Below, in pieces: positions 15,036 through 63,706 of a DNA stretch of 64,000 nucleotides. A program made the position numbers and the translations under genes. Every line of letters starts with the position of its first letter. Position 1 is the stretch's first letter. The notes beneath the pieces were generated by a model. It worked only from the letters and a program-made list of their open reading frames with translations. It searched no databases and had not been told where the DNA came from. The stretch spans positions 18,461,346 to 18,525,345 of the forward strand of contig CM020618.1 in the NCBI GenBank assembly GCA_009829735.1, read 5' to 3'. Source of the DNA: Pyropia yezoensis. Taxonomy: Eukaryota > Rhodophyta > Bangiophyceae > Bangiales > Bangiaceae.

Positions 15036-15253
15036 AGCAATCAAAGACGGTTGGAGAGCGGCAGGGGTGCGGGGAGGGATGAGGTGCGTTCATAGGCGTG
15101 AGGATGGGCGATCAGTGGACAGTAGCGTGCTCCGTCGGGGGTGGGCGAGTGACGGCGAGCGACGGCGACTGGTGGTCATTCACAAAATACCACAAAATAA
15201 TGTCGCCATGAACCATTACTCCCAGAACAAGTGATACGACAAGTTTTCCAATA

Positions 15254-16954: not shown

Positions 16955-17239
16955 ATGGCTACCACCGCCGCCGCAACCGCGGCGACGGCAGCGGCGACGT
17001 TAGTGCCCCCCCCTGACGAGGCCCCCCCCCCCCAAGAGCAGGCCGTCCAGGTGGCGGTGCGGGTGCGCCCGCTCAATGCGCGGGAGCGAGACGCGGCAGC
17101 CGCCGCGGGCGGCTGGACGCCTTGGACCTATGACGGCACCACCATCCGCCAGATGCCGCCACCGGGGGCAAGCGGTGGGGGCGGGGGGGGAAGTGGGGGG
17201 GGCGTCGGCTCGCGGGACAGCGGCATCGGCATTGGTGGT

Positions 17240-17270
<31 letters not shown>

Positions 17271-18586
17271 GCGGCGGCGGCGGCCTTGCCATGTCGGTTG
17301 CTGACGGCGGGGGTGCCCCCCCGCCGTCGGCAACCTACACCTATGACCACCTCTTCCTTCCCGGGAGCACCAATGAGCAGGTGTACGACGCGGTGGCGGC
17401 GCCCATTGTGCGGTCGGCAGTGAGTGGCATCAATGGGGTGGTGTTTGCGTATGGACAGACCGCATCTGGAAAGACCCACACCATGCTCGGCACCGCCGCG
17501 GACCCGGGGGTGACGGCCCGCTCCATTGCTGGCGTCTTTGACGCGGTCCGCGCGTCGCCCGGCCGCGAGTTCCTCCTCCGCGCCTCGTACATTGAAATCT
17601 ACAACGAGGTCATCAACGACCTCCTCGACGGCGGGCGGGAGCACCTCAAGGTGCACGAGGACTGGACGGGCCGCATCTACGTGGACGCCCGCCAAGAGAC
17701 CGTTGCCCGCCCGGCTGACGTGTTGGCCCTCTTGGCCGCGGGGGAGAAGCTGCGGGCGGTTGGGGATACGGCCATGAACGAGCGCAGCAGCCGGTCGCAC
17801 ACGGTGTTTACGCTGCGGATCGAGTCGCGGGAGCGGCGGGCGCCGCCGCCGACAGAGGCGGTGCCGCCCCCCGCGGCGGGACCACCCAAGCTCACCGCCG
17901 CAGACCCCGACGCGGGCGCCGCCGCCGCCGCCGCCACGGCCGCCGCCGCGGGCGATGGGGTGGCCGTCCGTGCGTCGACCCTGTCGCTGGTCGACCTCGC
18001 CGGCAGCGAGCGCGCGTCCGCCACGGGCGCGGAGGGGCGGCGGCTCAAGGAGGGCGGCCACATTAACAAGTCCCTCCTCACGCTCGGCACGGTCATTGCC
18101 AAGCTGGCCGCCGCGGGTGGCGGCGGCGGCGATCCTGCCGACGTTGTCGCCCACATCCCGTACCGGGACTCCAAACTCACCCGCATCCTACAGCCCGCCC
18201 TCGGCGGCAATGCGCGGACTGGGGTGGTGGCGGCCGTGTCGCCGGGGCGGGCGGCGCTGGACGAGACGGTGGGGACGCTCAAGTTTGCGGCGCGCGCCGC
18301 GCGGGTGACCAACGTGTCCACCGTCAATGAGTGGCTGGACGACCGTGCCAAGCTCCGCCGCGCCACCGCAACGATTGAGGCGCTGCGGGCGGCGCTGGCG
18401 GCCGCCACAGCGGGAGCGGCGACGACGCGGGTGCCCGCCAAGACCATTGGCGCACCGGCAGAAGCGGGGGCAGGAATAGCGGGGCTGGCGGCGTCGACGA
18501 CTGGCAGTGGCGGGCAGGACGGCGGCGGCGGGGGTAACGAGGGGGACGACGGCGTCGCCGCCGCCACCGACGCCACCGCCACCGCT

Positions 18587-18621
<35 letters not shown>

Positions 18622-21265: not shown

Positions 21266-21945
21266 GCGCCGGCGGGGGCGCTCCCCCCGGGTGGGAAAAT
21301 TACATGGAACGGCAGTGATGCCTGTACAGCCACCACCCCACGCGTCAACGGATCCCCTCTCCCTGCTAGCCCAGCTCTCCCACTTGTCCCCTCCGCCTCC
21401 CCCCTGGATCTACCATTGGGGTCACTATCGGGTCTTCCGCGTGGCAACGGCCATCGCCAGGAGTACTCTCTTCGGCACCTACAGCGCCATGACCGCCGCT
21501 GCCCCCCCCCCCACCAGGCACCTTCACCGACCACGTCGAAGCAAAAGCTGGTCGCTACAGACCGCACGTTGGGGAGGTCAGACCTCAGAGGGCGACGGCG
21601 CCAGACCTCAGAGGGCGACGGCGCCAGCGACGGGGGTCACGACGGCCCGTATAGACGCCTCCTGCCAGCACGGAAGTAGCCAGCAACTGGGTGAGCGAGC
21701 GGCGAGGGCACTGCCGCCAAGAGCAGCGGGACGCGGGTCCGCTGGGGGGCGCACTCGTGCGAGCGCGGAGTCCCCCCCAGCGCAGTGGTGTCAAACCCCA
21801 AGACGTCGGGGACCGAATTTTGGCCCACACAGCGCGTGCGAACCCGTGCAGACCTCGAAAAATCCGGCTCAGAGGGTGCGTAAAGGGCGTTTTTTTTGCA
21901 CTGGAGCGCACAGCCCGTGCAAGCACACTTTGCCTGGTCTCCGTA
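21266..21945. other. Region downstream of kinesin, no gene
   Basis: A 22-bp unit (core CCAGACCTCAGAGGGCGACG) is tandemly duplicated near 21578-21625. An inverted repeat with 10-bp arms CGCTGGGGGG at 21740-21749 and CCCCCCAGCG at 21773-21782 is present. No coding region is supported. Confidence 0.5.
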
Positions 21946-47430: not shown

Positions 47431-47432
47431 TA

Positions 47433-47551
47433 TAGTGCGTCCCGTAAAAAGTGGACGTGCAGGTGTCGTGATCATGTCAAATATCGGCCACTGGACCAAT
47501 CAAACCCACACTGCACGACCTGTGCACGTCCACTTTTTACGGGACGCACAA
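47433..47551. mobile_element. 119-bp MITE, copy 2, inserted in the Harbinger target-site duplication
   Basis: Flanked by TA at 47431-47432 and 47552-47553. Terminal inverted repeats of about 28 bp carry GTGCGTCCCGTAAAAAGTGG at each end and are nearly perfect. Same family and same length as 21946-22064, in opposite orientation. The right-hand TA abuts the first base of the Harbinger element at 47554. Confidence 0.93.
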
Positions 47552-47553
47552 TA

Positions 47554-47581
47554 GAGCATGTCTATCGGTGAGCCAAAAAGC
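47554..47581 (+). repeat. Left terminal inverted repeat of Harbinger element
   Basis: 28 bases starting GAGCATGTCTATCGG and ending CCAAAAAGC. A diverged second copy, GAGCGCATGTCTGTCGGTG, follows at 47615-47633. Confidence 0.92.
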
Positions 47582-47878
47582 TATATCCAAAAAGCTATTT
47601 TTTTTGCTCCAGCAGAGCGCATGTCTGTCGGTGTGGAGCTATTTTTAACTTTTCCGCCACAAGTTCTTCTGAAGTCCAAAGTGTGGAAACAGGACGAGCA
47701 CCGCTGCACGCCAGTGGCCGCTCGCATCCCGGACCGGGCTGCGCCACACCGTGCAGGTCTTCTGCACCATCATCCCCGCTACCCCCCTCCCCTACTCCGA
47801 TCCCCATCCGCCGTCTACGTGGTCACCGTGGAGCATCCCTTCCCAAGTACCCCAGCTTGTCTTGCGGCAGGTGCGGCT

Positions 47879-49220
47879 ATGGATGAGCTCGTTGCGGACC
47901 TGCTGAGCGACAGCGAGGAGCAGGCCGTTGGTTGCGTCTGCCTGGCCGCGGCGCAAGCCGTGAGCTACGTCTCTGCCCAGCCGCCCGTGAGCTGGCGCGG
48001 GCGTTCTGTGAGGTCGGCTCCCAACGTCAACCGGGGGACGTGCTCGTGGCTTAAGGACTACCTCTCACCGAGCCCCACGTACAACGCCGCGCGATTTCGA
48101 GCGCGCTTCCGCGTGCCTATGCGGTTGTACCGCGCCCTGGAGCGTGAGTTGCCCCTGTCCGAGCCCTCGCTACTGCAAGGGATCGATTGCACTCGCCGGA
48201 GAGGCCATCCTCTGTATGCTAAGCTGCTCAATAGTCTGCGTCGCTTGGGCTCGGAGGCATCGTTCCACGAATTGGAGGACCAGTCCCATATGTCTGTCGA
48301 GTCGCAGAGGGTCTCTTTCTTGATTATCCTGCGTGCTGTGCGCGCGCGGTTGGGCCCTCGGTTTCTTAACAGGGAGCCGACGGTTGCGGAGCTGCAGATG
48401 CTCTCTGACTGCTTTGCCGCCCGGGGTTTTCCTGGTTGTGTTGGCTCAGTCGATTGCATGAAAATCCTGTGGAAGAACTGCCCTCGGGCTCTGAAAGGAC
48501 AATACCACAACCCAAAGGATGGCAAGCTGGCTGTTATCAGCTGCGAGGCCGTGGCGGACGGGGACCTATACTGCTGGCACTGGTTCGCTGGTAGACCCGG
48601 GACCAACAATGACCTGACCGTGGCGAGCTTTAGTCCCCTTTCTTCGGACATACTGTCGGGGCGCCGGCGCGTACACCTACCTGGAGGCTACCAGCTAGGC
48701 GGGAGCTAGCGGTTCTGGCCGTTGTACTTCCTATCTGACAGCATCTACCCGAGGTGGGCGATCATTTTCTCGCGCTATCTTGAGCCCCGCGACGGAGAAG
48801 GAGAAGTACGCTGGGAAGCGCCAGGCCGCCGTGCGCAAGGACATTGAGCGTTTCTTTGGATGTCTCCAGGGACGTTTTCGGATCCTGCGGCACGAGCGTG
48901 ACGAGTGGAGTGATGAGGTGGTCCTGCTCATTGCGGAGGTGTGCGTGATTTTGCACAATCTGCTGGTGTCTATGGCCAAGAGTGGAGAGTTGGACGAGGA
49001 AGCGAGCGGGGAGGGCGGCGAGCCGCCTGCCGATCTGGTGGAGGAGTTTTCTGCGGCGCTGCCCCACGGTGTTGACGAGGGTGTGCCCCACGCTCCGGTC
49101 CCATGCGTTGGGTTGGCAGCACTGCTGGATCGTTCCGATGAGGTAAGGAGTGAGGGTGGGCATGTGGCGTTGCGCATGGCGGTGATCGATCATTTGTGGA
49201 GCGCGCGTGGGGAGGAATAG
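47879..49220 (+). pseudogene. PIF/Harbinger transposase (Plant_tran/DDE_4 type), one stop and one frameshift
   Basis: The first part (47879-48709, 276 codons from MDELVADLL) holds the catalytic core: GSVDCMKILWKNCP gives the first Asp (192) and GTNNDLTV the second (Asp245). An in-frame TAG at 48707-48709 interrupts it; the same frame then continues with YFLSDSIYPRW, matching the family's LADGIYPxW block. Near 48783-48795 the frame shifts, and EKEKYAGKRQ with AVRKDIERFFGCLQGRF carries the third catalytic residue (Glu in DIERFFG) to the stop at 49220. So all three acids survive across a nonsense mutation and a one-base shift. An ATG inside the terminal repeat (47558) is in frame but unlikely to be the start. 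Confidence 0.9.
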
Positions 49221-51806
49221 GTTGGACAGTGCATCCTCGCTTTCTCACGTGCTCGTTGCGGCGGCGGTGGTGCTTTTCGCGCGCCGGCACTTGCGCCGGG
49301 CGGGGGTCAGGGGCGCCGCTCGGGGATTCCGGGCGAGGGAGGGGGCTATGGCTAAGGTGGGGGGACTGCTTGGGGCATCGGCAGTGTTGGCAGCGGGGGC
49401 CCCCCGGCGGGGCTGCTGGGTGCGGGGGAGGGGGGGGGGCTGCATGGGCGGCGGCAGGTGGCTCCCGCCGCCAGCACCGCCCTGCCGCCGCCGCCGCCGC
49501 CACCCGCCGACGGCGCGGGCGCCCCGGGCGCCGCCTCACCGCGGCGCGCCGCCCCCCCCCCACCATCTGTCAGGGCGGTCGACGCCGCCGAACCCGGCGC
49601 CAACCCCCACCCCCCCCCTCCACCCAGGCCCGTGCACGGCGCTCGCCGCCGCCGTCGCCGCCACCGCCGCCCGCTTCCGCGGCGAACCCGCGGCGGCGGC
49701 GCTGCTGCGCGACGCGGTGGTGGCCATCTCGTCGGGCGCCGCCCCTTTCGTCGCGCGTTACGTGCTCGGCAGCCAGCTGCGGCCGTGACGAGGGCGGGCG
49801 GGAGGGGGGCGCGCCGGCGGCGGGGGAGGGGGGCGGGCGTGCGGTGCGGCGGGGATCGGGGGGGGGAGGGGCGGGGCGGTGCTGCCGGGGGGTGGGCGTG
49901 CGGTGGGGCGTGCGGGGCGCGGGGGGGGCGCGGGGCGGGCGCGGGCGTGACGAGGCGGGGCGTGGCGGGGCGAGGCGGGCGCCGTGGTGGGGGTGCTGCC
50001 GAGTGGCCATCGGACGTGGCCCACCTAAAAGTGGTCCCAATGCGAACGGCCCGCCGCCCAGGCATGGCGCCACCGCCGACGCCCCCCCCCCCCCCGACGT
50101 CCAGGCCGCCGCCGCCACGGCCGGCGCCTGGCCTCCTCCCCCCCCCCCCCGCGCCGCCACCCGCCGCCACCGCCGCTGCCGACGCTGCCGCCACCGCCCA
50201 CGTCGCGCCGTCCGACTCCCCCGTCCATCAACGCCGCGGGGGCCCGCCGGCCTCCCACCCAACCCCACCCAGCCACCCCCCCCCCCCCGCTCCGCCCGAT
50301 TGCTGTCGCCCGAAGCCGCAGTCACGCGGGCGGCGGCGCCATGGCCGGCCGCCGCCGCGGCGCGCGGCGCGCGACGGCGGCGGCCACCCCGCCGGCGGCG
50401 ACGGTGCGCGCCCCGCCCGCCGCCGCCCCCTCCGTGCCGACCGACGTCGAGCCGGCGTCGGAGGCGGCGGCGGACGCGGCGGCGCGGGCGCCCGCGGCGG
50501 ACGCGGCAGCGGCCGACGCGCGCGGAGGCGCGCTCGGCGCAGAGGCGGCCTCCCTTGACGCGGAGGCGGCCGCCCTCGACACGGAGGCGGCGGTGTCAGA
50601 CGCGGCCGATGGGGCGTCCGAGTCTGACGCGGCGGCGGAGGCGTCCGACGCACACGCGTCAGACCTTCTGTGGGAGGAGGACGTGCTCGGCTCCCTCGAC
50701 GTGCTCGCGGTGAACCTGAAGCCCTCCACCGCCGCCGGCGTGCCACCCCACGGCGGGGGTGGGGAGATTGTGGTGGACGGCCCCGCCCCCCCCCCCCCCC
50801 TACCCCCCACGCGGCTGGCGGCGCTGCTGGCGGCGCTCGCGGCGGCCCCCCCCCCGCGCGTCGCCCGCCTCGGCGACACCCTCGTGCTGTGCGCGGCGGC
50901 GCTGCGCGCGGCGGGCCACCGCGTGCTGCTGGTGCGAACGCTGGTGCCCGTCAGGCGGTCGCCGCTGCGGGTGTGGCGGGCGGCTGCGAGGAGGTGGGGG
51001 AGGGGGGGGGGCCGCCGCAGCCGCCGCCGGCACTGGAAGCGGCGTGTCTGAGGTGGTCGGCACCAACGGGGTGGGGGTGGACGCGGACGTGGCACCAGCG
51101 GGGGGGGTGGCGGCGGCCGCCGCCGCCAACGCGCCCGGAGTCGCGCCCGCCGCCGCGCCAGTGGACGCGGGCGCCGCCGGCGGGGGCGCCGCCGCTGCAG
51201 GGGGCGGCGGGCGGCCGCGCCGGTGCCGCGCAGCTGCGAACGGCCCCGCCGGCGCCGCGCAGCGGCGGCGGCGGCGCCCCTGGCGGTGGCGGCAGCGGCG
51301 GCGGCGGCGGCGTCGGGGCGGTTGACACGACGGGGCATGCGCCCCCCCCGTCCCCCCCCCCGGCGCGCGCTCCCCCCCCCGACGACGCGGCGCGGCGTAA
51401 GGCCACCGCCGCCGCTCTCGCGCACGTCACCGCCGCCGAAGGCGACCGCCTCCGCGACATGAAGCGGCGGTACGCGCACGACTGGGTGGCGGCGGTCCCG
51501 TCGCGGTCGCCCGACGGTGTTTTTGGGACCGGTCGGACGGGAAGCCCCGCATGTAGCTGTTAAAAGTGGCCATTCTTCCCACCGCTTTTCTGGCCGCTAT
51601 CCCCGCGAGTCGTGGCGTTTAAGCTCTCCTTCGGCGGCCGGTTTAGGGGATGCCCGCCGACCGCGGCGGTTGCGGCGCCGGCCGTTGCGCGCCGCCGCCG
51701 CCGCCGCCGGCGGATGAGGATCCGGGGGATGGGGACAGCAGTATATACGTCGCACAAGAACACATTGGTTGGAGATACGCGTAACAGAGCCAAAGCAAAA
51801 AGAACG
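49221..51806. other. GC-rich interior of the Harbinger element, possible captured host sequence
   Basis: This block has poly-C runs and Ala-rich frames like host DNA, unlike the transposon genes on either side. Two frames look coding-like: the end of the frame at 49207-49788 (ALAAAVAATAARFRGEP, ending GSQLRP), and a frame at 50341-51051 starting MAGRRRGARR in good ATG context with WEEDVLGSLDVLAVNLKPS and PTRLAALLAAL segments, perhaps continued by DDAARRKATAAALAHV to 51563 across a frame change. I recognise no domain. It may be captured gene fragments or an insertion; I do not call a gene. Confidence 0.4.
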
Positions 51807-52914
51807 TTACCCACCTTCCTCATCGTCGTCAGACCCGCCGGTGGGGGGAGTAGGATGCGCCTGACCAGCGCACCCAGCACCGCCAGACGAGGACTGAAGC
51901 TCCTGCGTCCGCCGCAAGAGGTCGCGGACGCGACGTTGCTTGTCCGCCCCTGGCTCCAGCAGTTCGACCAGTTTGGTCTCGAGGGCCAAGCCTGCCAGAG
52001 CGGTCTTGCGCTCAGCTGCAACGGACAGCGCCGTCCGGACACCCTGGACAGAGTCGGCGAGGTTCTGGACCGCACGGTGTGACCCGCGGTCAGTGGCTGC
52101 GGAGGCCCTAAAGCGCTTGGCCCCGGTCGGACGACGGGAACTGGGCGAGGAGGCCGGAACAGCAGCAGCATTGGCAGGCCCCGCCTCACTCCCGCTGTCC
52201 TCCTCAACGTCCCCAGGTGCCGCGGCCTTCTTGCCTCCCCCATCAGCGCCACCCGTGCCCGACCCACCCGACTCGCGGCTCGCTGACGCTGGAAGCCCAG
52301 TGGAAGGCGTGCAGTGCTCACCAATGTTGGATGAAAACTTGGGGCACCGGGCCAGTAAGTGGGCAGCGCCAGTACTCAGGAAAACAGGGGCCAGACGCTG
52401 GCCCTTCTTGGTCATTACCATATTGGTCCTCCGATACAGCAGTTGGATGTTGCTCACCGTGTCCTCTTCCGTCTCCCCGGACGGGATGTTCTACAGCTTC
52501 TCGGCGGCGTTGTACTTCTGGGCTTGCCTCTGCAGCGTAAAAAAAGCGAGACCGCAGACTGGCGGTCGTCCGAGCCGCCATCGCTTCAGGCTGCCGGACG
52601 AACACGGCTCTCACCCGGGTCCAAAACAAGTCCCGATCCATGTCCGCGGTTGACTCCGACACGCTGAGCCAAGAGCGCGCCAACGCCAGGTCTTCGGCCG
52701 GGGTGATGTTTAGGTCGCGATGGGTCGTCCTGGTTGAGCAGGACAGGCCGCTTGAGCCGGCCGGCTGGCTCGAGCCGCCTTGCGGGGTGGAGTCGCTTCG
52801 CGGGGTGGGGCCGCCAGGAGGGGTGGGGCCGTCAGGAGGGGTGGAGCTGCCCAGTGGAGTGGAACAGATCAGTTGGGAGGAGCCCGGTGGCTGTCTGCGA
52901 CTCTCTGATGCCAT
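51807..52914 (-). pseudogene. Harbinger SANT/Myb-like accessory protein, one frameshift and one stop
   Basis: PIF/Harbinger elements encode a second protein with a SANT/Myb-like domain that brings the transposase to the nucleus and ends. From the ATG at 52914 (MASESRRQPPG), a Pro/Ser/Gly N-terminus leads to LNITPAEDLALARSWLSVS and FWTRVRAVFVRQP, the trihelix-like domain. At the seven-A run 52539-52545 the frame shifts; the other frame gives TLQRQAQKYNAAEKL, then a TAG at 52491-52493, then GETEEDTVSNIQLLYRR and the NAM-associated-type C-terminal region, ending in DDDEEGG at 51807. The order of motifs matches the family, so this is a disabled copy. The unshifted frame runs on as noise to 52318. 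Confidence 0.82.
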
Positions 52915-53170
52915 GGCGGTGGAAAAAAGTGAGGAGGGTAGGGGATAGAGGGTGGATGGGCTGGAATGACAAGCAAGGGGGTACGCAGCTCTTCTGGGGG
53001 GATAAAAAAGAGTGGGTGCCGCAAGGGCGGGCAGCCAGGCGCTGGCCGCGCTGCTGTTCCGTCGAAGAAGTCGCGACAACAACTCCAACGGCCGACCCAA
53101 CACCAGGTGGAATGAATGGGCTCGCGGCGGGGTGCGTCCCCGATCCGCGCATCTGATTGGCTTAGCCATA

Positions 53171-53218
53171 AAGCTATCCTCTGAGCCATCCTGCAGAATA
53201 CAGCTCAGAGGATAGCTT
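53171..53218. repeat. Subterminal hairpin of Harbinger element, 16-bp perfect arms
   Basis: AAGCTATCCTCTGAGC (53171-53186) pairs with its reverse complement at 53203-53218 over a 16-nt loop. The tail of the arm resembles the AAAAAGCTA start of the terminal repeat. Confidence 0.85.
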
Positions 53219-53277
53219 TTTGGCTCAGGGAAACAGCTTTTTGGCGCACCGATAGACATGCTCTGAGCTAAAAAATG

Positions 53278-53305
53278 GCTTTTTGGCTCACCGATAGACA
53301 TGCTC
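53278..53305 (-). repeat. Right terminal inverted repeat of Harbinger element
   Basis: Reverse complement of 47554-47581, followed by TTA at 53306-53308. A second near copy of the end (CACCGATAGACATGCTC) lies just inside at 53239-53255. Confidence 0.92.
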
Positions 53306-53964
53306 TTACAGTAGTCGTACTGAGTACTGTACTCGATAAATCCGCCGGTCACGTCATGAGCCACAACGCGAGTCCATTGGCTACAGTGCTCGCACGGTGG
53401 TGCTCACGCGGTCACAGCCACAGCGGAGCATGCTTGTCATCGCCCCCCAGGGCGTGGACCCGCCTCTGCTGCGCATACGTACCCACCGAGGGGGCGAGTA
53501 CGCCGCCCCCCCCCCCCTCCCGGCATCTTCCTCCCCCACCGGGGCTGGTGGCAACTCCCCGCGGGCGGCGTGCTCCCAACGGTGTGTAGTCACCCCAAGC
53601 GCGGGCGGGGATTGGCGGGGCGCTGGGCGCGACGGCTGCTCTTTGTACCCCGCCATGTGGGGCCCTCCCAGGGCGTACATACATGTACACCAAGGTAGAC
53701 TGGACCCAATACGTCGACAGGGCTGCTAGTTTTCCGAATGTACACGAGGGGGGAAATGGACGTCTCGCCCGCCCGCGGCATCCTCCCCCGCCTGGGCGGC
53801 AGGCCAATGTGACGACAGCCAAGACGCATAGACCGTTTCTACTCACCCTGGAAGCGGAGTGGGTCGGGGGCGCCCCCCCCCGGTTTAGGTCCCAAGGCGG
53901 TGCGAAGGGAGGCAGCAGCAGGAAAACCATTGACGAAGCGACAGCAAGATGTTGAAGACCGTCC
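53306..53964. other. Spacer between Harbinger element and LTR retrotransposon
   Basis: No gene is supported. GTAC-rich motifs occur at 53317-53332 (GTACTGAGTACTGTAC) and 53674-53688 (CGTACATACATGTAC). It ends in the CGTCC target duplication at 53960-53964. Confidence 0.5.
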
Positions 53965-54536
53965 TGTGGTATAAAACTCGATCCTCTCAGACACGTGTCA
54001 ATATCCCTCGGGGGAAAGGGACAGGTAACGCAGAAAGGGGAACTACGAGAATGGTATGCCTGTTGCCTCACGTGCCTGCTCGCAGAGCAAACAGATACGC
54101 ACGGTAGTGCACACGGGGAAGAGGAAAGCAAACGCGCAGTTGTCTTTTTCCCTGAGGGCGCGGGCCGAGGGCGCCTCGCTGTCCCTCTTAACGTGCATCT
54201 GGGGGAACCCCGGCACGTTGGCCCGGTAGCCCCCCCATAACCCCGAGTGGCCCCGACCCGAGTCTAACCTCGTCAGGTCGGGGGCCACTATCACTACTAA
54301 TTCTATTCCCACTCACTAATCTCACACTCAAATTCTCTCAAATCAAGGCCCTCACAAATATGCAAAAACACATCAGAAATCCCTCTCTCGCGTGTGGATA
54401 GCGTAGTCCACCGCATCCCAGTGCCGGGCACGGGCCACGGCCGCCAACCATCGCCACACGGCGGGCGTGTTCTGGCACCTGGTGCCCTCTGGTTGCAGTC
54501 CCGGGTCGGCGCCAAGTCGGGGCCAGGGATGCTACA
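53965..54536 (-). repeat. 3' LTR (left on the plus strand), 572 bp
   Basis: Starts TGTGGTATAAAACTCG and ends GGGATGCTACA on the plus strand. It contains an imperfect hairpin at 54247-54288, with arms near GTGGCCCCGACCC and GGTCGGGGGCCAC. Identical to 63053-63624 except at 54348. Confidence 0.97.
53970..53976 (+). promoter_or_regulatory. TATA box in the 3' LTR pointing toward the antisense ORF
   Basis: TATAAAA on the plus strand, six bases into the LTR and about 750 bases upstream of the antisense ORF start. No equally good TATAAA is seen in the sense direction of the LTR. The same motif in the 5' LTR (63058-63064) points out of the element. Confidence 0.4.
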
Positions 54537-54540
54537 TAGC

Positions 54541-54550
54541 TCCCTCCCTA
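54541..54550 (-). promoter_or_regulatory. Polypurine tract for plus-strand DNA synthesis
   Basis: In the sense (minus) direction TAGGGAGGGA leads into GCTA and the 3' LTR. A purine run directly upstream of the 3' LTR is where reverse transcriptase primes the second strand. A tract this short is usual for chromoviruses. Confidence 0.65.
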
Positions 54551-54722
54551 GTCCGGCACGTCCTCGGGCCGAACCAGGTGCCACCGTGCACAGCCTCGAG
54601 CACGTCCACACCGGTGCCGAGGTCGAGCGTCTTCACCCCGGTCACAATCACCTGCCCCGATTCTGCCCCCCCCCCCTCCGCTCCTTCACCTTGGCCCTCT
54701 CGTTCCCCGGAGTCTGGACGGT

Positions 54723-56849
54723 ATGTCCAGTTCCGAGATCCAAGCTGGGCCCGTGGTTCCGGCGGCGAGTGTTGCGGAGGAGAACTCGGGTCGTCGTGCC
54801 CCTCTCCTGCCTCCGGTTCCTCGGATGTCGGTGCCGGCGCCGGTCGCCACGGCGGGGACGGATCGAGTTCCCCCGGCTTCCGCGATGCACCCGGTCGAGG
54901 CCCCCCCGGAGGGTCTCCCGGAGATGCTTCTTGGGCAGGACCCTCTGGCGGCCCGGCGTTACTCCACGGTGGTCGGCAACGCCGGCGCGGCCCAGTGCCA
55001 GCAGGATTGCATGGACCTCTGGCGCAAGGAACTCCAGCGCGGGGTCTTGACCGAGATGGACAAGGCACGTCTTCATACGGCGGACCAGATGCGCCTGGCA
55101 CAAGACCGCTCCCAGAGCTTCTCGGGTTCCTCTTGGGTTGCTCGTCTGGAGGATCTCCCCTTCGCACTGGTACTGGATCTACCCTTGACCGAGCGTCGCG
55201 TGTCCGCGTCCGTTCTCCGGTGGCCGGAGGAGGAAGGGTACGTCTACCGGGCGCTCAAGGTCTGGGACGAGGCGCTCAAGGGGTCGGGAAGCTTGAACTG
55301 CGACCCCCGTCCGAGCATGGTCGCTCTGGAGCCGCCTTTCTTGACCCGGAAATACTCCAAGTTGTCGCCGGCACGGGAGCAGGGTGAGCGACGCGGGCGT
55401 CAGCGTGACTTCCTTGTGAGCTGCAACCACCAGGAGTTCTGGAAGCTGGACAAGGCTAACCGGGCGGCATACTACCCCAAGGTCATCCCGCAGCAGCAGG
55501 AAGTCGAGATCCCGGTCGGGTTTGCTCCTTCCAGCATCCCTTGCACCTGGTACTTCTTGGACGCCTTGACTCAGGCGTCGATCAAGGGCTTCTTCCACTC
55601 AATCCCGTACATGATGTACACGTCCGAGATGACAGTCCTGGCGGCCAACCACTGGCTTCATGAGGTCTTGGTGTCCAACCGGCTTTGGTTTCTCCCTGAC
55701 CTCCTGATGGTCTGGATTGTCGACAAGTTGACCGTCGACTTCCTGTGCAGCCAGGACGAGGAGTACAAGGAGCTCTTCCAGGCGATGATCGACTTCCGGC
55801 GTCTGGTGCCGGTGCATGACCGGAACTTCTTGAACGCGATTGCCGACCAGAACCGCCCGCGTCGGGATGGCTTCGGTTGGGCGCAGGTGGTCTACCAGTC
55901 TTCTCCGGCCAAGGTGCAGCTGGCGACGCCGCTTCCGGCGTGGCCGCAGCTAGGTAGCTTTCCTGCTCCGGCCGCCCTTGATCTTCTGCCAGTTGGGCCG
56001 CCGGTGCAGGAGTCGGGATGGGCCGCGGCGGTCGGTCGGGCGTCTGCGGCGGCTCCGCTTCCTCTTGTTGCCCCTGTCGCCCCGGTCGCCTCGGTCGCCT
56101 CGCCTGAACCGTCACCGGCGCGTCCGCGCCCTGTTCCGGCTGTGCCGGTACTTCAAGCTCCTCCGGCACCGCGCTTGTCTGCGGCGAGTCTGGGAGTGGC
56201 CGTGCGGTCGCCGACTACTCCGGCCGCTCTACCCCGGACGCCTTCTTCCAACGCCGGCGGCGCTGTGCCTCCGCTGGAGTTGGGCACTCCGGTCTCGGGG
56301 GCCGTTGTGGACCGTCCGGTAGTGTCATCCTCAGGCCGGTTCGAGATTCCGGCGCCGACTCTGCGCCTTACCCGCTTCCGGGTGCCTGACTGGTACCTGA
56401 ACCAAGGTGGTCCAACATGCGACCAGTACGACGTCGGTATGATTGAAGACCAGCTGGGTCGTCTTCCGGTGCAGGTTGAAGGCGTCGGGTCTTCTCTGGT
56501 GCTGGGCACTTACGCCATTGTCTTGAACGACGTGGTCGACCGGGTGTTTGCTTGCGCGGACAGTGGTCAGATGTCGAACAACCCGGTGGTTGGCGAACTT
56601 CTGGCGACTTTGACGCGGCATGGCTTGGCCCAGCAGTGGTCAGAGACCTTCACGGGCTTCCAGCGGCGCCGACGGACATATCTGGATGAGCGGGAGCCAC
56701 CGGCAACTACTGGTACTACTCCGATGACGTCATACCGGGATGCGCCGCGTCCACCGCACTACGTCATCCCGTCTTCCTCCGGTTCCCGTCGTACCGCGGA
56801 GGCAACGCCGGAGGACACTCCCGCGGCTCAGCGTCCGCGCCGGGAGTAG
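54723..56849 (+). CDS. Antisense ORF of the retrotransposon, 708 residues, unknown protein
   Basis: An uninterrupted ORF from ATG at 54723, on the strand opposite gag and pol, between pol's 3' end (146 bp away, tail to tail) and the 3' LTR (187 bp upstream of its start). It does not overlap the known genes, so it is not a shadow frame. Residues 1-75 are Pro/Ala-rich; 90-390 form a normal-complexity domain rich in aromatic residues (SIPCTWYFLDALTQ, NHWLHEVLVSNRLWFLPDL); 400-520 is a Pro/Ala/Val linker; 535-650 is a second domain (LRLTRFRVPDWYLNQGG, QLGRLPVQVEGVGSSL); the end is basic (FQRRRRTY; RPRRE). I recognise no family, zinc knuckle or enzyme motif. Antisense ORFs at this position are known in some plant Ty3/gypsy elements; function unproven. 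Intactness in a young copy suggests selection. Confidence 0.85.
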   Translation: MSSSEIQAGPVVPAASVAEENSGRRAPLLPPVPRMSVPAPVATAGTDRVPPASAMHPVEAPPEGLPEMLLGQDPLAARRYSTVVGNAGAAQCQQDCMDLWRKELQRGVLTEMDKARLHTADQMRLAQDRSQSFSGSSWVARLEDLPFALVLDLPLTERRVSASVLRWPEEEGYVYRALKVWDEALKGSGSLNCDPRPSMVALEPPFLTRKYSKLSPAREQGERRGRQRDFLVSCNHQEFWKLDKANRAAYYPKVIPQQQEVEIPVGFAPSSIPCTWYFLDALTQASIKGFFHSIPYMMYTSEMTVLAANHWLHEVLVSNRLWFLPDLLMVWIVDKLTVDFLCSQDEEYKELFQAMIDFRRLVPVHDRNFLNAIADQNRPRRDGFGWAQVVYQSSPAKVQLATPLPAWPQLGSFPAPAALDLLPVGPPVQESGWAAAVGRASAAAPLPLVAPVAPVASVASPEPSPARPRPVPAVPVLQAPPAPRLSAASLGVAVRSPTTPAALPRTPSSNAGGAVPPLELGTPVSGAVVDRPVVSSSGRFEIPAPTLRLTRFRVPDWYLNQGGPTCDQYDVGMIEDQLGRLPVQVEGVGSSLVLGTYAIVLNDVVDRVFACADSGQMSNNPVVGELLATLTRHGLAQQWSETFTGFQRRRRTYLDEREPPATTGTTPMTSYRDAPRPPHYVIPSSSGSRRTAEATPEDTPAAQRPRRE

Positions 56850-56994
56850 TAGTTGGATGCAAGGAGGGTGAGGGTCTCGGGAGAAGCGAGGAGGGAAGAG
56901 GCGGAGAGAAGGGTTGCTCGAGCGGGTGCTTGTTTTCCTTGATTGCTCCATGTTTGCATTGCGTGTTCTCCTTGATATACCCGTTCCCTTCTTC

Positions 56995-59900
56995 TCAATC
57001 CTCTTGTTCCGCATCCGTTGCGGGTGAGCTCGTCTCGTCCCGAGGGTCTTGGTTGGCCCCGTCCTCTTGGTCCTCCTCCGTGTCCGACTCCAGAATCTTG
57101 CCGGCTCTGGCCATTGGAGTGCCCTCAATCCCGTTCCGTCGCGTGTAGGCACAGACGTCCGCGATGGGTAGCCGGTTTGAGGGTTCCCATGTATCATCTG
57201 CCGGGTTAAAACCGAACCAGCGTACTCGCAGATACAGGCGTCCATCTCTCCAGGCATGGTCGACAAACTTGACGTAGGCATACTCCCGGCCTTCTTCTGG
57301 GGATAGCCAGGGTATCGCAGTCCGCTTGCGCCGGGTCAAGTCCCGCTGGCTTGGCGGTGGAGCTCGGGTGACATGGTCGCTGCTCACCCGGTACGGAGAG
57401 CCATCCACGTCTAGAAGGAAGGTCCAGCCATCCGTATTGAGAATCTCATAAGGTCCATCCGTCTTAGAGTCCAGCTTCCCCCGGGTCTTGCTATGGTTGT
57501 CCACAAAAACCCAGTCGCCACCACCCAGTTCCTTGTTCTTTTCCCGGACACCCTTGTCATAGTCCCGCTTGTATCGCTCCTGGGTCTTTGAGATTGACTC
57601 CTTGACTCTTGGGAGCAGGAGCTTTAGTTGTTCCAGGAACTCATCCTTTGCCTTGGGACCTGACTTCAGTGCAGGCTGGAGACCGTCTGGTATTCTTTCC
57701 AGGGAGAAGTTGGTCAACCGCCTTGGGGTGACAAAGTCGAGTGGAGCGACTCCCGTTGTCCGGTGAACTCGGGAGTTGTAGGCTAGAGTGAGGACAGCCA
57801 GGAGCTCGTCCCAGTCTTCTTGGTGCTCCTCCACGTAGTGCCGTAGCATGTCCACTAGGGTCCGGTTGAATCGTTCCACCTGGCCGTTCGTTTGAGGGTG
57901 GTACGTCGTGGTGTACAAGTTCTTGATGCCCATCAGGTCACAGACTCCTTGGAAGAACAGGGATGCAAACTGGGGACCGTTGTCGGTTAAGACGGAGTCT
58001 GGAGGGCCATAGGCAGCTATCCAGTACTCGCAGAAGGCTGACGTGACATCCAGAGCCGTGATGGTCCTCAGCGGGATTGCTCGAGTAAACTTGGAGAACC
58101 GGTCACAAATGATGAGCAGGTATATGTTGCCACTGGATGTTTCAGGTAGGGGCCCCAGGATGTCCATGCTTAAGCTTGCAAAGGGCTCCGCCGCAGGGAA
58201 TAGGCGTAGCTTAGAAGTCTTCTTCCTCTGGGACAACCGGTTCCTTGCACAAGAAATACAAGCCTCCAGGCACTTATGGACGTCACTGGCCATGGTTTCC
58301 CAGTAATAATGTCGTCTCATGGAAGCATACATCCGATTGATACCAGGATGTCCGGCCTGGGGAGACGAGTGCTCCAGGCGTAGGATGTCAGCTCGTAGAC
58401 TTCGGGGTACGTAAACTTGAGTTGCCCCATCGAAGGGTGACACCCGTACCAGGAGTCCGTCTGTAGACTCGGAGAAGCGACTGTTCCGGTTCAGGTCCAT
58501 TTGGTGGCGAAGCTCCAAGCATTGAGGGTCCGTCAATTGTGCCTCCAGCATCCGGTGAATGGTTACCGGTTGATGAGCGTCAGGTGTCTCGTACAGGGGA
58601 GCGTGCCAGCCACGTCCGACATTCGGGAGGATAAAGCAAGGTATTTCCTCCGGGATAGGACCGGTATCGGCTGCGGGGGTCTCCAGCCTGGACATGGTGT
58701 CGGCGCAGTGGTGCTCCCTCCCTGCTCTGGTGCACACCTTGTACTTGAACTCCGAAAGGCGTAGGCGCCACCGGGCGACCCTTCCTTGACTGCTGTCCAT
58801 GCATAGCAGCCACCTTAGACTGGCGTGGTCCGTCCGGATGAGGAACTCTTGTCCTTCAAGATATGGACGTAACAGGAAGCAAGCCCAGACGACCGCCAAG
58901 CACTCGCGCTCGGTCGTGGAATAGTTCTTCTCGGCTGGAGTCAAGACGCGACTGTAGTAGCCTACCGGGAGGAAGTGCCCATCAGGTTGCTGCTGGAGTA
59001 GTGAGCACCCCACCTGGACGCCACAGGCATCAGTCTCCAGAACAAACTGGCCCTCCCGCTTGGGTAACGCCAGTACTGGAGTGGTGGTCAGGCGCTTCTT
59101 GAGCTCTTCGAAGGCTGCTGTCTGCTTCTCGTCGAACACCGGGAGTTGTGCTGGAAGCTTCTTGCTAGTAAGCTTGGTTAAGGGCCGGGCAATCCGAGCG
59201 TAGTCCCGTACGAACCGGCGGTAGACGTTGCACATACCCAGGAAGCTCTTGAGTTCCGTCTGGGTTTTAGGTTGCCGTGCATGCCGGAGGGCCTTGATGT
59301 TCTTCTCATTGACTCGGAGCTCCCCCGGACTCAGCACGTGCCCCAGGTACTCCACCTCAGTCTCAAACAGGTGGCACTTCTCGGCCTTGAGGGTAACTCC
59401 AGCCTTGGACAGGAGGGCCAGGACTTCTCGAAGGTGCTCCAGGTGTTCCGCTGGGGTCTTGGAGAAAACGATGATGTCGTCCAGGTAGACCAAACATGTT
59501 CTCCACCTTAGCCCCGACAGGATGATGTCGATGGCTCTCTGGAAGGTTGCCGGAGCATTAGTGAGACCAAAAGGGAGACGCTTGCACCGGAATAGTCCCA
59601 GGTGGCACGTGAAGGTAGTCTTGTCCTTGTCCTCATCAGCCAGAGGGATCTGCCAGTAACCGGCATTACAATCCAGCGTCGAGAAGAGGGTGGCATCACC
59701 AAGAAAGTCGAGGCAATCATCCATCCGGGGTATCGGGTATACATCCTTGACTGTCATCTCGTTCAGGCGTCTGTAGTCAACGCAGAAACGGAAGTGACCG
59801 CCAGGTTTCGGGACGACTACCACCGGGAAAGCCCACTCGCCATCAGACGGCTCGATAACATCCATCTTGAGCATCTTGTTAACCTGCTTCTCAATCTCAT

Positions 59901-61089
59901 CCCGGCGATGAGATCCAGCCCGGTATGGTTGCATGTGCACTGGTTTGGCATCTGGCTTGAGTTGAATCCGGTGTAGGGTGGCGTCCATCTTGCCCAGCTC
60001 TCCGGACCACAGGTGCCGATATTCCTGGAGAAGCTTCTCCAGTGCCTCCTTCAAGTCGGGAGGGACGTTTTCTTGGTTGACCTTCGGCATCCCGGGCGGT
60101 GCTTGTTCGGGCTTCGGATTAGTACGGCCAGCCTGCTCTTGTTCCGGAGATACGTCTAAGGCCGTCAAGTTGGATGCCAGCTCTTGTTGCAGGTTGAAGA
60201 GGTCTTCCTTGCTCATGGCGCGGGCGGACCCCCGGTAAGGCTCTGCTGTACCAACTCGAGTGCCCTTGGCGAGGGTTATTGGCTTCCGGCTCACGTTGAC
60301 GATCAGCACCGAGAACGGGGTGTGCCTCTCCACCTTCTTGTGATGTCCGTGGGCTAGGTATAATCGGTGTTTCGCCAGAAATTCCTTGCGTCCGTAGATC
60401 AGGCATTGACCTGCAGTCCGGGTCGTGACTTGAACCTTGGTCTCCGAGCGAGGAGGTAGGAGCACCGGTTTGATGAGGGTCAAGGTAGAGGGTGGGATGC
60501 GTTCCTTCTGGTTCTTGGCCACACGAACCTTGGTGTCTAGGTGCTCCAGCACTGGTGACACAAACCCATGGTTGAACTGCACCTTTCCTTCTCCGGGTAG
60601 GATGCTCTTGACATGCTGCTTCTGGAAGTCCCAGCCTAGGATGAGGGGGACTGATAAGGTCTTGACTACTAGAAAGGGAAAAAGCATTGGTTCATTGTTG
60701 ACATAGATGGCGACGGGAAGACGGCCAAGCGGTCGTAGGGTTTGACCTGATGCGTCTACAATATGGGTTCTGGTAGGCGCTCTCCAGGCATGTCGACGCC
60801 AGCCCGGAGGTAACAGGTTCTCAGTGATGACGCTTGGTCCGGCTCCCGTGTCGACCACCGGCGTAACAGCTTGGGGGAGGCTATCCCCCACACGCATACG
60901 AGCATTAATCTTGAGGTTTTCCTTACGCAGGACGAGCAAGGTCCCCTTGAACAAACAGGGTGTCCAGGCGGCTACCGGTTGAGCAGGTAACTGCCGTCCT
61001 TTCTCCCGGCACGCAAGGGGAGAACAGGTAGAAGTACCCTGCCATTGGAGATTCGGGAAGACACTTGGGGAGAGCGCCTGCCCTACTCG
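56995..61089 (-). CDS. pol: Pol polyprotein: protease, reverse transcriptase, RNase H, integrase, chromodomain
   Basis: Numbered from the codon at 60954, motifs run in order: aspartic protease DTG at 35-37 (VVDTGAGPS); reverse transcriptase with YLDD at 490-493; RNase H acids Asp642, Glu682 or Glu684, and Asp709; integrase zinc residues His862, His869, Cys899 and Cys902; integrase triad Asp931, Asp991 and Glu1027 (DD35E); and a C-terminal chromodomain at about 1226-1272 (LYLRVRWFGFNPADDTWEP). This order defines Ty3/gypsy, and the chromodomain the chromovirus branch, which targets chromatin marks. No ATG opens the frame; it is open back to 61110, overlapping gag by 28 bases, so Pol is probably made by -1 frameshifting at 61089-61095. 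No stops inside. Confidence 0.97.
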   Translation of the reverse strand, partial: RVGQALSPSVFPNLQWQGTSTCSPLACREKGRQLPAQPVAAWTPCLFKGTLLVLRKENLKINARMRVGDSLPQAVTPVVDTGAGPSVITENLLPPGWRRHAWRAPTRTHIVDASGQTLRPLGRLPVAIYVNNEPMLFPFLVVKTLSVPLILGWDFQKQHVKSILPGEGKVQFNHGFVSPVLEHLDTKVRVAKNQKERIPPSTLTLIKPVLLPPRSETKVQVTTRTAGQCLIYGRKEFLAKHRLYLAHGHHKKVERHTPFSVLIVNVSRKPITLAKGTRVGTAEPYRGSARAMSKEDLFNLQQELASNLTALDVSPEQEQAGRTNPKPEQAPPGMPKVNQENVPPDLKEALEKLLQEYRHLWSGELGKMDATLHRIQLKPDAKPVHMQPYRAGSHRRDEIEKQVNKMLKMDVIEPSDGEWAFPVVVVPKPGGHFRFCVDYRRLNEMTVKDVYPIPRMDDCLDFLGDATLFSTLDCNAGYWQIPLADEDKDKTTFTCHLGLFRCKRLPFGLTNAPATFQRAIDIILSGLRWRTCLVYLDDIIVFSKTPAEHLEHLREVLALLSKAGVTLKAEKCHLFETEVEYLGHVLSPGELRVNEKNIKALRHARQPKTQTELKSFLGMCNVYRRFVRDYARIARPLTKLTSKKLPAQLPVFDEKQTAAFEELKKRLTTTPVLALPKREGQFVLETDACGVQVGCSLLQQQPDGHFLPVGYYSRVLTPAEKNYSTTERECLAVVWACFLLRPYLEGQEFLIRTDHASLRWLLCMDSSQGRVARWRLRLSEFKYKVCTRAGREHHCADTMSRLETPAADTGPIPEEIPCFILPNVGRGWHAPLYETPDAHQPVTIHRMLEAQLTDPQCLELRHQMDLNRNSRFSESTDGLLVRVSPFDGATQVYVPRSLRADILRLEHSSPQAGHPGINRMYASMRRHYYWETMASDVHKCLEACISCARNRLSQRKKTSKLRLFPAAEPFASLSMDILGPLPETSSGNIYLLIICDRFSKFTRAIPLRTITALDVTSAFCEYWIAAYGPPDSVLTDNGPQFASLFFQGVCDLMGIKNLYTTTYHPQTNGQVERFNRTLVDMLRHYVEEHQEDWDELLAVLTLAYNSRVHRTTGVAPLDFVTPRRLTNFSLERIPDGLQPALKSGPKAKDEFLEQLKLLLPRVKESISKTQERYKRDYDKGVREKNKELGGGDWVFVDNHSKTRGKLDSKTDGPYEILNTDGWTFLLDVDGSPYRVSSDHVTRAPPPSQRDLTRRKRTAIPWLSPEEGREYAYVKFVDHAWRDGRLYLRVRWFGFNPADDTWEPSNRLPIADVCAYTRRNGIEGTPMARAGKILESDTEEDQEDGANQDPRDETSSPATDAEQED

Positions 61090-62843
61090 TTTCCCGGGTC
61101 CGAGGAGTCCTTAGAGGTTTCGGTCTCCAGGTCAAAGTCCGTAGGAGCTTCCCTTGCCAGAGCCTCCGTGATGCTCTGTAAGGTTGCCACTCGGATGGCA
61201 TGTACCTGTGCCTTGTCCATCTTGGAGGGTGCCCGCCGGTCAGCCCAGTTGACCGCCTTTGCAAACACCAGTCCTTGACGCTTGAGTTTCTCCTGGAGAT
61301 CCTTGGGAATGGTCGGGCACTGGTAGGACATATGATCCTCCTTCTGGCAGAGCCAGCAAGACCGGAATCGCTGGTTCCTGATCTGCTTGGGGGCGACCAG
61401 GGAAGGTTGCTCCTTAGAAACGAAGCCGCCCCACTTGTCCCTTGACTCCATGGGTGAGGCCTCGCCAACTGCGAGTACCGGTACAGGGTTATCACCTCCC
61501 TTATACTTGTCGGGTCCGGGACGAACTCGCGACAACGGCTTGGGAGTTGATACCATAGGAGCCTGGAGGGCCTTGGCTTGCCGGTGCTTGCCCTGGGTGT
61601 AGGCCATCAACTGCTGGAAGGTATGTTCTTGATGTTCCTGGTTGTAGTTCTCCGCATCCACTTGAAGATATTCAGGAAGCCCCTCCGAGAAGATCATCTT
61701 GAGCCTGTCCTCAGGGTAAACGTTGCCACAAGCATCGCTCATCTCCCGGACACGACGGGCGAACGCCTCTGGAGTCTCTTGTCTCTCCATGGTTGCCCGG
61801 TTCAGCCTACCGACTGCCTTACGCAGGGAGTCCGCGTCTGCGTAGTTGGACAGGAGCCAGTTGACCGCCTCCGGATAACTCGCGACGGTACGTCCAACAA
61901 TGTGCCCGGCAGAGTCTGGTAGAACCTGTGCAAACCGCTGTTCCGCTTCTCCGGTCATGAAGTTAATCAGGAGATAGAGAGCCTTGCCCTCGGACACATC
62001 GTTGTCATTGCATGCCTTGACAAACCGGCGCAGGAAGGCAAAGATAAGCGCCGGTTTCTTCCCGGAAAACTTAGGATGTCCCCCAAAACTCGGCTGCATT
62101 CGCCGGCTCAGGGATGCCATCTTCTTGGCCATCTTCCGGGTGTAACCTTGGTCTTGGTTCTCCAGCCGGTAGTTACCCCAATACGTGACCTTGTTCAGGG
62201 TGGCATCTCCCACTTGGTGGGCAGGGAAGTCGAACTCGACTAGCCTGCGCCGGGTAGGACCGGGAGATGCATCCCAGTCATATCCCTCCTCAGAGCTGGA
62301 GGAACTGGTCTCGCTGGTGCTAGAGCGACGGCGACGACGCCGACGCCTACGGCTGCTCCGGTTACCGGTCTTGGAGCTCCCCGCCCCATAGGACGCAAGG
62401 GGAGGAAAAGCTTGGCCGGTCCCAGGAGTCGAAGTCTCAGGAAGACCCGTAGAACCAGTCATAGCGGTGCCTCTGGCACTGCCAGTGCCCACAGGAAGAG
62501 GTGTATACACCCAGCTGCCATGTGTGGGTCCAGGAGTAAACACACCAGGGGCTATCCCTGGAGGTTGAAGAGTAGAACCGACAGGAGGGAGACATCTGCT
62601 GCGAGCGGACTCGAACGCCGTTGACCCCGGGGTGGCTCCCACAGGAGGAACAGCCGGAGGAACGGGAGCAGGCGGTACTTGGCCGCCTGTAGACTCCAGT
62701 CCCCTACCGGATGTCACGCCCAGGTCTGCTTCACCCGTAGGGAGAACGCCGGGTTGGGCACCGTCCCCCGCGGTGACCAGGGATGCGTCAAGGGACGCGG
62801 GGTCTACCCCTTCGGGCACCGTCGTGCCAGGGAGGGTAGCCAT
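61083..62843 (-). CDS. gag: Gag polyprotein with CCHC zinc knuckle
   Basis: From the ATG at 62843 (MATLPGTTVPEG, context CCAACATGG) the protein has 586 residues. Residues 1-150 are Pro/Gly/Thr-rich; a run of nine arginines lies at 165-173, followed by Ser-rich acid; 205-425 is the capsid-like retrotransposon Gag domain (YLLINFMTGEAEQRFAQVL; PEAFARRVREMSD); the nucleocapsid zinc knuckle CWLCQKEDHMSYQC (Cys496, Cys499, His504, Cys509) has exact C-x2-C-x4-H-x4-C spacing. Gag forms the virus-like particle and packages RNA. The frame is also open upstream to a GTG at 62966, but no ATG is there. The stop at 61083-61085 is preceded by the slippery site. Confidence 0.95.
   Translation of the reverse strand: MATLPGTTVPEGVDPASLDASLVTAGDGAQPGVLPTGEADLGVTSGRGLESTGGQVPPAPVPPAVPPVGATPGSTAFESARSRCLPPVGSTLQPPGIAPGVFTPGPTHGSWVYTPLPVGTGSARGTAMTGSTGLPETSTPGTGQAFPPLASYGAGSSKTGNRSSRRRRRRRRRSSTSETSSSSSEEGYDWDASPGPTRRRLVEFDFPAHQVGDATLNKVTYWGNYRLENQDQGYTRKMAKKMASLSRRMQPSFGGHPKFSGKKPALIFAFLRRFVKACNDNDVSEGKALYLLINFMTGEAEQRFAQVLPDSAGHIVGRTVASYPEAVNWLLSNYADADSLRKAVGRLNRATMERQETPEAFARRVREMSDACGNVYPEDRLKMIFSEGLPEYLQVDAENYNQEHQEHTFQQLMAYTQGKHRQAKALQAPMVSTPKPLSRVRPGPDKYKGGDNPVPVLAVGEASPMESRDKWGGFVSKEQPSLVAPKQIRNQRFRSCWLCQKEDHMSYQCPTIPKDLQEKLKRQGLVFAKAVNWADRRAPSKMDKAQVHAIRVATLQSITEALAREAPTDFDLETETSKDSSDPGNE
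61089..61095 (-). promoter_or_regulatory. Putative -1 ribosomal frameshift site GGGAAAC
   Basis: In the gag frame the sequence reads CCG GGA AAC GAG TAG, so G GGA AAC matches the X XXY YYZ rule. A -1 slip re-reads the C at 61089 and enters the pol frame, which is open from 61110 to the end of pol. The site lies one codon before the gag stop. Confidence 0.7.
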
Positions 62844-63030
62844 GTTGGTCTCTTGACAGCCACAGTCCAGTTGCCTGCGTGTCCAAAGATCGCAAGACCA
62901 CAAGAGAGGGGTTGGAGAGCCAGGAATGGGGTTCCCGTGAACGGGTGCAAATAATTCCCAAACCACAGAAAAAGACAGAACAGGAACAACGCAACCGCTG
63001 CTCCCAAATGTCTCTTCTCAAACACTCCAA

Positions 63031-63052: not shown

Positions 63053-63624
63053 TGTGGTATAAAACTCGATCCTCTCAGACACGTGTCAATATCCCTCGGG
63101 GGAAAGGGACAGGTAACGCAGAAAGGGGAACTACGAGAATGGTATGCCTGTTGCCTCACGTGCCTGCTCGCAGAGCAAACAGATACGCACGGTAGTGCAC
63201 ACGGGGAAGAGGAAAGCAAACGCGCAGTTGTCTTTTTCCCTGAGGGCGCGGGCCGAGGGCGCCTCGCTGTCCCTCTTAACGTGCATCTGGGGGAACCCCG
63301 GCACGTTGGCCCGGTAGCCCCCCCATAACCCCGAGTGGCCCCGACCCGAGTCTAACCTCGTCAGGTCGGGGGCCACTATCACTACTAATTCTATTCCCAC
63401 TCACTAATCTCACACTCAAATTCTCTCAAATCAAGTCCCTCACAAATATGCAAAAACACATCAGAAATCCCTCTCTCGCGTGTGGATAGCGTAGTCCACC
63501 GCATCCCAGTGCCGGGCACGGGCCACGGCCGCCAACCATCGCCACACGGCGGGCGTGTTCTGGCACCTGGTGCCCTCTGGTTGCAGTCCCGGGTCGGCGC
63601 CAAGTCGGGGCCAGGGATGCTACA
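63053..63624 (-). repeat. 5' LTR (right on the plus strand), 572 bp
   Basis: Same as 53965-54536 with T at 63436 instead of G at 54348. Followed by the target duplication CGTCC at 63625-63629. Confidence 0.97.
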
Positions 63625-63706
63625 CGTCCCCCGCCCACCACTTTCTCGTTCCGTTCTTCTGCGCCGCGGCCGCTCTCCCTGACCCTACACCCTGTCCCCT
63701 GCCTCA

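Follow-up and report, generated by a model that had tools for sequence, protein, structure and literature searches.

The window analysed here, a 64,000-nucleotide stretch of the Pyropia yezoensis genome, carries a single Ty3/gypsy LTR insertion on its minus strand between 53965 and 63624, with a chromodomain in pol (Table 1). The two LTRs agree at 571 of 572 positions and both have TG...CA ends, so that the initial annotation's statement that they differ at one base is borne out. The pol frame is open from 61110 and overlaps the end of gag by 27 nt in a different frame. Pfam places protease, RT, RNase H, integrase and chromodomain in pol, in the order PR-RT-RH-INT with the chromodomain C-terminal; the chromodomain (20.5 bits, cut-off 25.1, E 4.5e-4) and the protease (19.5 bits, cut-off 20.7) both score below the Pfam gathering scores, and the zinc-knuckle match in gag is weak (15.5 bits against a cut-off of 20.8). 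Among proteins of solved structure, the best match to pol is Ty3 Gag-Pol (E 2.4e-109). The element had been called a chromovirus: the chromodomain on which that name leans was found, while the name itself is unconfirmed, since chromodomain Gypsy lineages unrelated to chromoviruses are described from Ectocarpus (PMC12477816, excerpt), and we use "chromovirus" only as a label suggested by domain order.

Table 1. Features of the insertion and of its antisense ORF (window coordinates; residue numbers for the ORF segments).
Feature	Position	Strand	Description and source
Target-site duplication, low-coordinate copy	53960..53964		5 bp, GGACG on the element's strand; from flanks
3' LTR	53965..54536	-	572 bp; self-BLAST and comparison
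Spacer between 3' LTR and antisense ORF	54537..54722		186 nt, 68% G+C
Antisense ORF	54723..56849	+	708 codons, ATG to TAG; ORF list
Antisense ORF, N-terminal part	residues 1-122
Antisense ORF, region 1	residues 123-405
Antisense ORF, Pro/Ala linker	residues 406-535
Antisense ORF, region 2	residues 536-660
Antisense ORF, tail	residues 661-708
Gap between stop codons of antisense ORF and pol	56850..56994		145 nt
pol ORF	56995..60954	-	1319 aa counted from first listed start codon; open
gag ORF	61083..62966	-	627 aa, open; ORF list and Pfam
5' LTR	63053..63624	-	572 bp; self-BLAST and comparison
Target-site duplication, high-coordinate copy	63625..63629		5 bp; from flanks

The feature of interest is an ORF on the strand opposite gag-pol, in a frame that is open from 54552. 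It lies between pol and the 3' LTR and overlaps neither, as first described. Seen on the plus strand, the 3' LTR is upstream of this ORF and contains TATAAAA at 53970; on the element's own strand, the LTR-side end of the intervening spacer is purine-rich, a putative polypurine tract. The segments in Table 1 were drawn by eye, and their composition matches the description of two regions joined by a Pro/Ala linker: Pro+Ala content is 42% in the linker, compared with 15% in region 1 and 11% in region 2. The encoded protein has only one basic run, RRRR at residue 648 in region 2, and no CxxC-type motif. We considered and rejected an envelope-like gene, given the antisense orientation and a top 19-residue mean hydropathy of 1.54, under the usual cut-off of 1.6. 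Tandem Repeats Finder returned three rows of 27-30 nt across 54537-56994, and the ORF falls among the extra ORFs as delimited in an excerpt of PMC6317226 (at least 250 codons, not in tandem repeats of more than 150 bp).

An ORF of this kind could have no function, being a stop-poor, GC-rich stretch that is open merely through the youth of the insertion. The near-identity of the LTRs (one difference in 572 bases) agrees with youth, stop triplets make up only 1.6% of the ORF region, and long spurious-looking ORFs occur elsewhere in the window. One of these, a 1296-aa ORF at 17677-21567 (minus strand) opposite a kinesin gene (16955-21265), cautions against taking ORF length as evidence. The GC-rich host DNA of the window has many such ORFs, unlike this element, where the longest non-gene open runs in the gag-pol part are 227 codons on the minus strand and 126 on the plus strand. 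Simulations rarely reproduce the antisense frame: among second-order Markov sequences, an open run of at least 765 codons in whatever frame was reached by 2 of the 8000 whose training set was this stop-poor region and by none of the 4000 for which it was the entire internal element, and the longest run in a separate set of 3000 region-trained sequences was 661. The expectation that a random, non-overlapping 2.1-kb sequence would seldom be free of stops therefore stands. Nor is the ORF the shadow of a sense gene, which is ruled out by stops in every sense frame across it (9, 13 and 11).

Codon periodicity also argues against a functionless frame. We measured it as GC3 minus GC2 and compared it with 5000 phase-shuffled controls: the value for the whole ORF, 0.225, and that for region 1, 0.406, were reached by none of the controls, the N-terminal part (0.230) by three, and region 2 (0.240) by two. 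The linker is without such periodicity (-0.062, reached by 4121 of the 5000).

We searched the host genome (107,475,971 bases, 11 contigs) and found at least 63 copies, this being the number scored among 20321 first-look candidates. An Rfam search, directed at the host, gave no match. All 63 are near-identical (98-100%) and span the ORF, one of them from residue 2; 61 are stop-free, and the other two carry one TAG each. Fifty of them (L001-L050), 44 distinct, were analysed in detail. No stop or frameshift is present in 48 of the 50, and in all 50 the ORF is flanked by the end of pol and by an LTR, with only a partial pol in L019 and a partial LTR in L049. The copies fall into two subfamilies, of 705 aa (41/50) and 708 aa (9/50), which differ by a 9-nt gap in the linker.

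To evaluate selection on the encoded protein, we classed two-allele sites among the copies as nonsynonymous (N) or synonymous (S), derived the expectation from these variants themselves by way of a mutation spectrum that allows for CpG, and expressed the outcome as a ratio to neutral. For the ORF in the 44 distinct copies, N = 55 and S = 103, giving a ratio of 0.26 (p = 8e-17; here and below, p values treat linked sites as independent), and two stop variants were seen where 5.7 would be expected under neutrality. The ratio is 0.19 when only shared variants are counted (N = 18, S = 46), and it is similar in the two subfamilies (0.27 in the nine 708-aa copies, 0.22 in the 35 distinct 705-aa copies). 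The element's own pol is constrained to a similar degree: its last 449 codons give N = 34, S = 65 and a ratio of 0.23, or 0.16 for shared variants, in 41 distinct sequences from 48 copies (L002 and L019, with incomplete pol matches, were dropped). Within the ORF, the ratio is 0.33 in the N-terminal part, 0.24 in region 1, 0.20 in the linker and 0.21 in region 2, while the tail gives 0.51 (p = 0.16). Four of the five wrong frames, evaluated with simpler expectations, give ratios of 1.5-2.4. The exception, -frame1 (0.44 for single variants, 0.23 for shared ones), has wobble positions in common with the ORF and holds 13 stops.

The 63 copies had been chosen by their similarity to the antisense protein, a bias toward intact and unchanged sequences that lowers N and hides broken copies; the count was therefore repeated on copies picked by pol. 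Thirty-five of these were scored among 6633 first-look candidates, 34 of them with a stop-free pol, as may be expected of a sample picked for pol. In all 35, at least the 3' end of the ORF lies beside pol at the expected place. Eighteen have there an ORF from the ORF-picked list; in each of the other 17, the adjoining 420 bases contain 270-273 nt from the 3' end of the ORF, at 97.4-99.6% identity. The ORF is unbroken in 21 of the 35 copies (16 of the 18 listed and 5 of the 17 others), the remaining 12 unlisted ORFs being truncated, frameshifted or interrupted by a stop. By these counts the ORF belongs to most copies of the family. In one region of the genome (G000:C1:42056005-42066530; L053, L055, L070), about 2.6 kb separates a pair of pol copies that point towards each other; the antisense ORF following each of them is truncated, so that two element ends stand in an inverted arrangement, and both are among the 12 broken copies.

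In the pol-picked sample, codons 1-615 give N = 62, S = 97 and a ratio of 0.31 (p = 1.7e-13), with N = 16 and S = 50 among shared variants, in 32 rows (16 of the 18 listed copies and 16 stretches for the 17 unlisted ones). Constraint on this part of the protein thus holds without any ORF-based choice of copies. For codons 621-708 the ratio is 0.54 and is not significant (N = 11, S = 12, p = 0.1; 33 rows), so that constraint on the C-terminal end is not established in this sample. Variants private to the five unbroken unlisted copies (N = 13, S = 5) give a ratio of 1.18, as relaxed change after insertion would give. Variants private to the broken copies, contrary to expectation, give 0.26 (N = 16, S = 27).

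Such a comparison of copies with pol had been proposed together with the initial annotation, and what would have spoken against a gene, copies without any of the ORF or an overall ratio near neutral, was not seen among the copies scored. More than youth keeps the frame open, as had been suspected, since constraint among copies is close to that on pol. Unless the sampling of copies misleads, the view that the ORF is functionless and open through youth is refuted on present evidence, and we leave it almost no probability. Its position, its orientation, its periodicity, its amino-acid constraint and the fact that every pol copy checked has at least the 3' end of the ORF beside it lead us to read the antisense ORF as very probably a genuine protein-coding gene belonging to the retrotransposon: an accessory gene, situated between pol and 3' LTR, of the kind termed aORF-3R or eORF-3'R.

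Where might such a gene have come from? The initial annotation had offered a captured gene as one possibility, and in its strict form this would be a recently captured host or viral gene, a passenger of no service to the element. LTR elements do bear acquired ORFs (PMC5408684, excerpt), and the GC3 of region 1 (0.82) exceeds that of pol (0.66) and gag (0.63) and falls among the values for six segments of host genes in the window (0.76-0.93); the values for the N-terminal part, region 2 and the linker are 0.77, 0.70 and 0.63. Yet the codon likelihood ratio of host versus element is near zero for the ORF, a passenger would hardly be expected to show constraint close to that of pol or to leave its 3' end at every scored pol copy, and only one outside relative, described below, is among the matches listed. 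For one type of ORF, the same excerpted source considers transfer among retroelements more likely than capture from a host. A recent passenger is accordingly disfavoured and, in our estimate, highly improbable; capture may still be the gene's distant origin.

A further possibility is that the ORF belongs to a different mobile element inserted within this one, and the window does hold others: a Plant_tran transposase at 47558-49220 and a DDE_1 transposase at 13164-15044. We find this extremely improbable, however: the ORF contains no transposase or other known domain, its end adjoins pol in all 35 pol-picked copies scored, and the region between pol and the LTR has no match elsewhere in the window.

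These neighbouring elements have features of their own. The Plant_tran transposase (PF04827) is split over two ORFs, 47558-48709 and 48780-49220, beside a 76% palindrome at 47431-47553. Inverted matches link 47553-47598 with 53212-53264 (81%) and 47553-47584 with 53275-53306 (97%), and 53153-53236 is itself a 79% palindrome; we take 47431-53306 to be possibly one PIF/Harbinger-like element. A 348-aa ORF at 52318-53364 (minus strand), with no Pfam match, has the string MSIGEPKS in common with the transposase ORF at 47558, and may be the second gene of that element or may just cover its terminal repeat. The DDE_1 transposase is a 626-aa ORF on the minus strand that also encodes two DNA-binding domains, Tc5-type and CENP-B N-terminal. 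Long poly-C and poly-G runs are numerous at 44559-46121, where a CG dinucleotide run also occurs.

The identity of the antisense protein was sought by profile and by structure. Searches of Pfam, NCBIfam and PHROGs gave no known domain, in agreement with the first impression from the sequence; in Pfam there was no match up to E 1 for the whole protein or up to E 10 for its two parts, and Transposase_28 (PF04195) was accordingly not detected. Matches to Rieske proteins in the PDB (residues 477-558 at best; E 0.015, or E 0.0022 with a two-sequence profile) lie mainly within the Pro/Ala linker, and we therefore dismissed them as matches of composition. AlphaFold2 models built from two sequences each had a mean pLDDT of 32.0 for residues 90-410 and 44.8 for residues 532-708, too poor for a fold search.

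The sole outside protein relative among the matches listed is P0001, from ENA (7993, 4203 and 2790 candidates scored), a 583-aa protein encoded on a contig of 2319 nt. Its alignment (97% identity) spans residues 123-708, residues 1-122 being missing, and shows 12 substitutions besides a gap of three residues; from the 705-aa copies analysed it differs by at least 10 residues. Its substitutions hinted at a less constrained linker (6/127 there and 6/456 elsewhere, p = 0.028), a hint that we rejected because the genome copies show the linker to be equally constrained. One viral contig stretch in IMG/VR encodes a relative of the antisense ORF. Viral contigs searched with pol, and a database of genome contigs searched with both the ORF and pol, gave no relative. 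With P0001 alone among the listed matches and a codon ratio that favours neither host nor element, the earlier suggestion of a captured gene gained no support.

It is instructive to compare this gene with known systems. Extra ORFs that run antisense in the interval from pol to the 3' LTR have been described as a class (PMC7264820, PMC11963269, PMC6317226; all cited from excerpts, as are the sources below), with named accessory genes in Grande, Retand, RIRE2 and Boty (PMC7264820). The plant Ty3/gypsy examples (Grande gene23, RIRE2, and Retand ORF4 with Transposase_28) have the same position and the opposite strand, are present in most copies of their families and encode mostly orphan proteins (PMC7264820, PMC11963269, PMC6317226). 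Plant Ty3/gypsy elements with extra ORFs of at least 250 codons number 3372, in 314 groups; 21.4% of the proteins resemble a known domain, most OTA (non-chromovirus) elements bear such ORFs, and whether the divergent ones have any function is a question posed in that source (PMC6317226). Retand belongs to a non-chromovirus lineage (PMC11963269), whereas here pol ends in a chromodomain, and neither Transposase_28 nor any other Pfam family was matched by the present ORF. Beyond plants, the Boty-like LTR elements found in Botrytis cinerea have an extra antisense gene, brtn (PMC7264820, PMC8365987), a likeness of description, made without sequence comparison. The ORF3s of bdelloid rotifer LTR retrotransposons are likewise extra ORFs of diverse and often unassignable function, but their known domains were not found here and no chromodomain is reported in them in the excerpt of PMC5408684. 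Among the titles and abstract openings listed in the literature searches, none describes an extra ORF of antisense orientation in the LTR elements of algae. What is new here is an orphan antisense protein in a chromodomain element; the kind itself is already known from plants and fungi.

These systems suggest how the gene might work. On our reading the gene multiplies together with its element, and its protein is maintained by selection acting on those copies that are active. A plus-strand transcript, we infer, would start from a promoter in the 3' LTR or in the 186-nt spacer and would then be translated; a start at the TATA box of the LTR would place four ATGs before the ORF. In maize, the antisense gene of Grande is served by a separate promoter upstream of it and its product is nuclear (PMC7264820), and a regulatory role is proposed in Retand, whose antisense ORFs occur in all clusters (PMC11963269). 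HBZ and APH-2 of HTLV are likewise antisense to gag-pol with nuclear products (PMC11963269), and HTLV, with an antisense promoter in its 3' LTR (PMC7264820), serves as a working analogy; no relation to it was found or is claimed, and, unlike there, the present ORF overlaps neither gag nor pol.

Alternatively, the antisense RNA rather than the protein might be what matters, pairing with the element's RNA and so feeding silencing or limiting copy number. A role of this sort has been raised for retrotransposon antisense transcripts (PMC7264820), and the plus-strand TATAAAA within the LTR is compatible with it, but pairing RNA would give no reason for a shortage of amino-acid-changing variants, relative to silent ones, within the frame of the ORF. 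As a replacement for a protein function we consider it very unlikely; the two roles can coexist.

For the protein gene that we favour, the product would then serve the element, and a regulator role is possible. By analogy with the proposals made for the Grande GENE23 and Retand TRP28 proteins, it may be a nuclear factor that influences how the element itself is expressed or integrated, a reading that we hold at somewhat less than even odds. A shade more tentative is the wider proposal of convergence with HBZ of HTLV and GENE23 of maize Grande: a nuclear regulator, transcribed in antisense from its own promoter within or beside the 3' LTR, would have arisen independently in a chromodomain element that is not from a flowering plant, would represent a protein family met only here, and would be under selection about as strong as that on pol.

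Antisense extra genes thus recur in LTR retrotransposons of plants and fungi, with no function established for them in the excerpts cited here. In Pyropia yezoensis, a multi-copy family in which selection on the protein is comparable to that on pol indicates that the element seems to need this protein, and the question of function is thereby made concrete in a new host and a new protein family.
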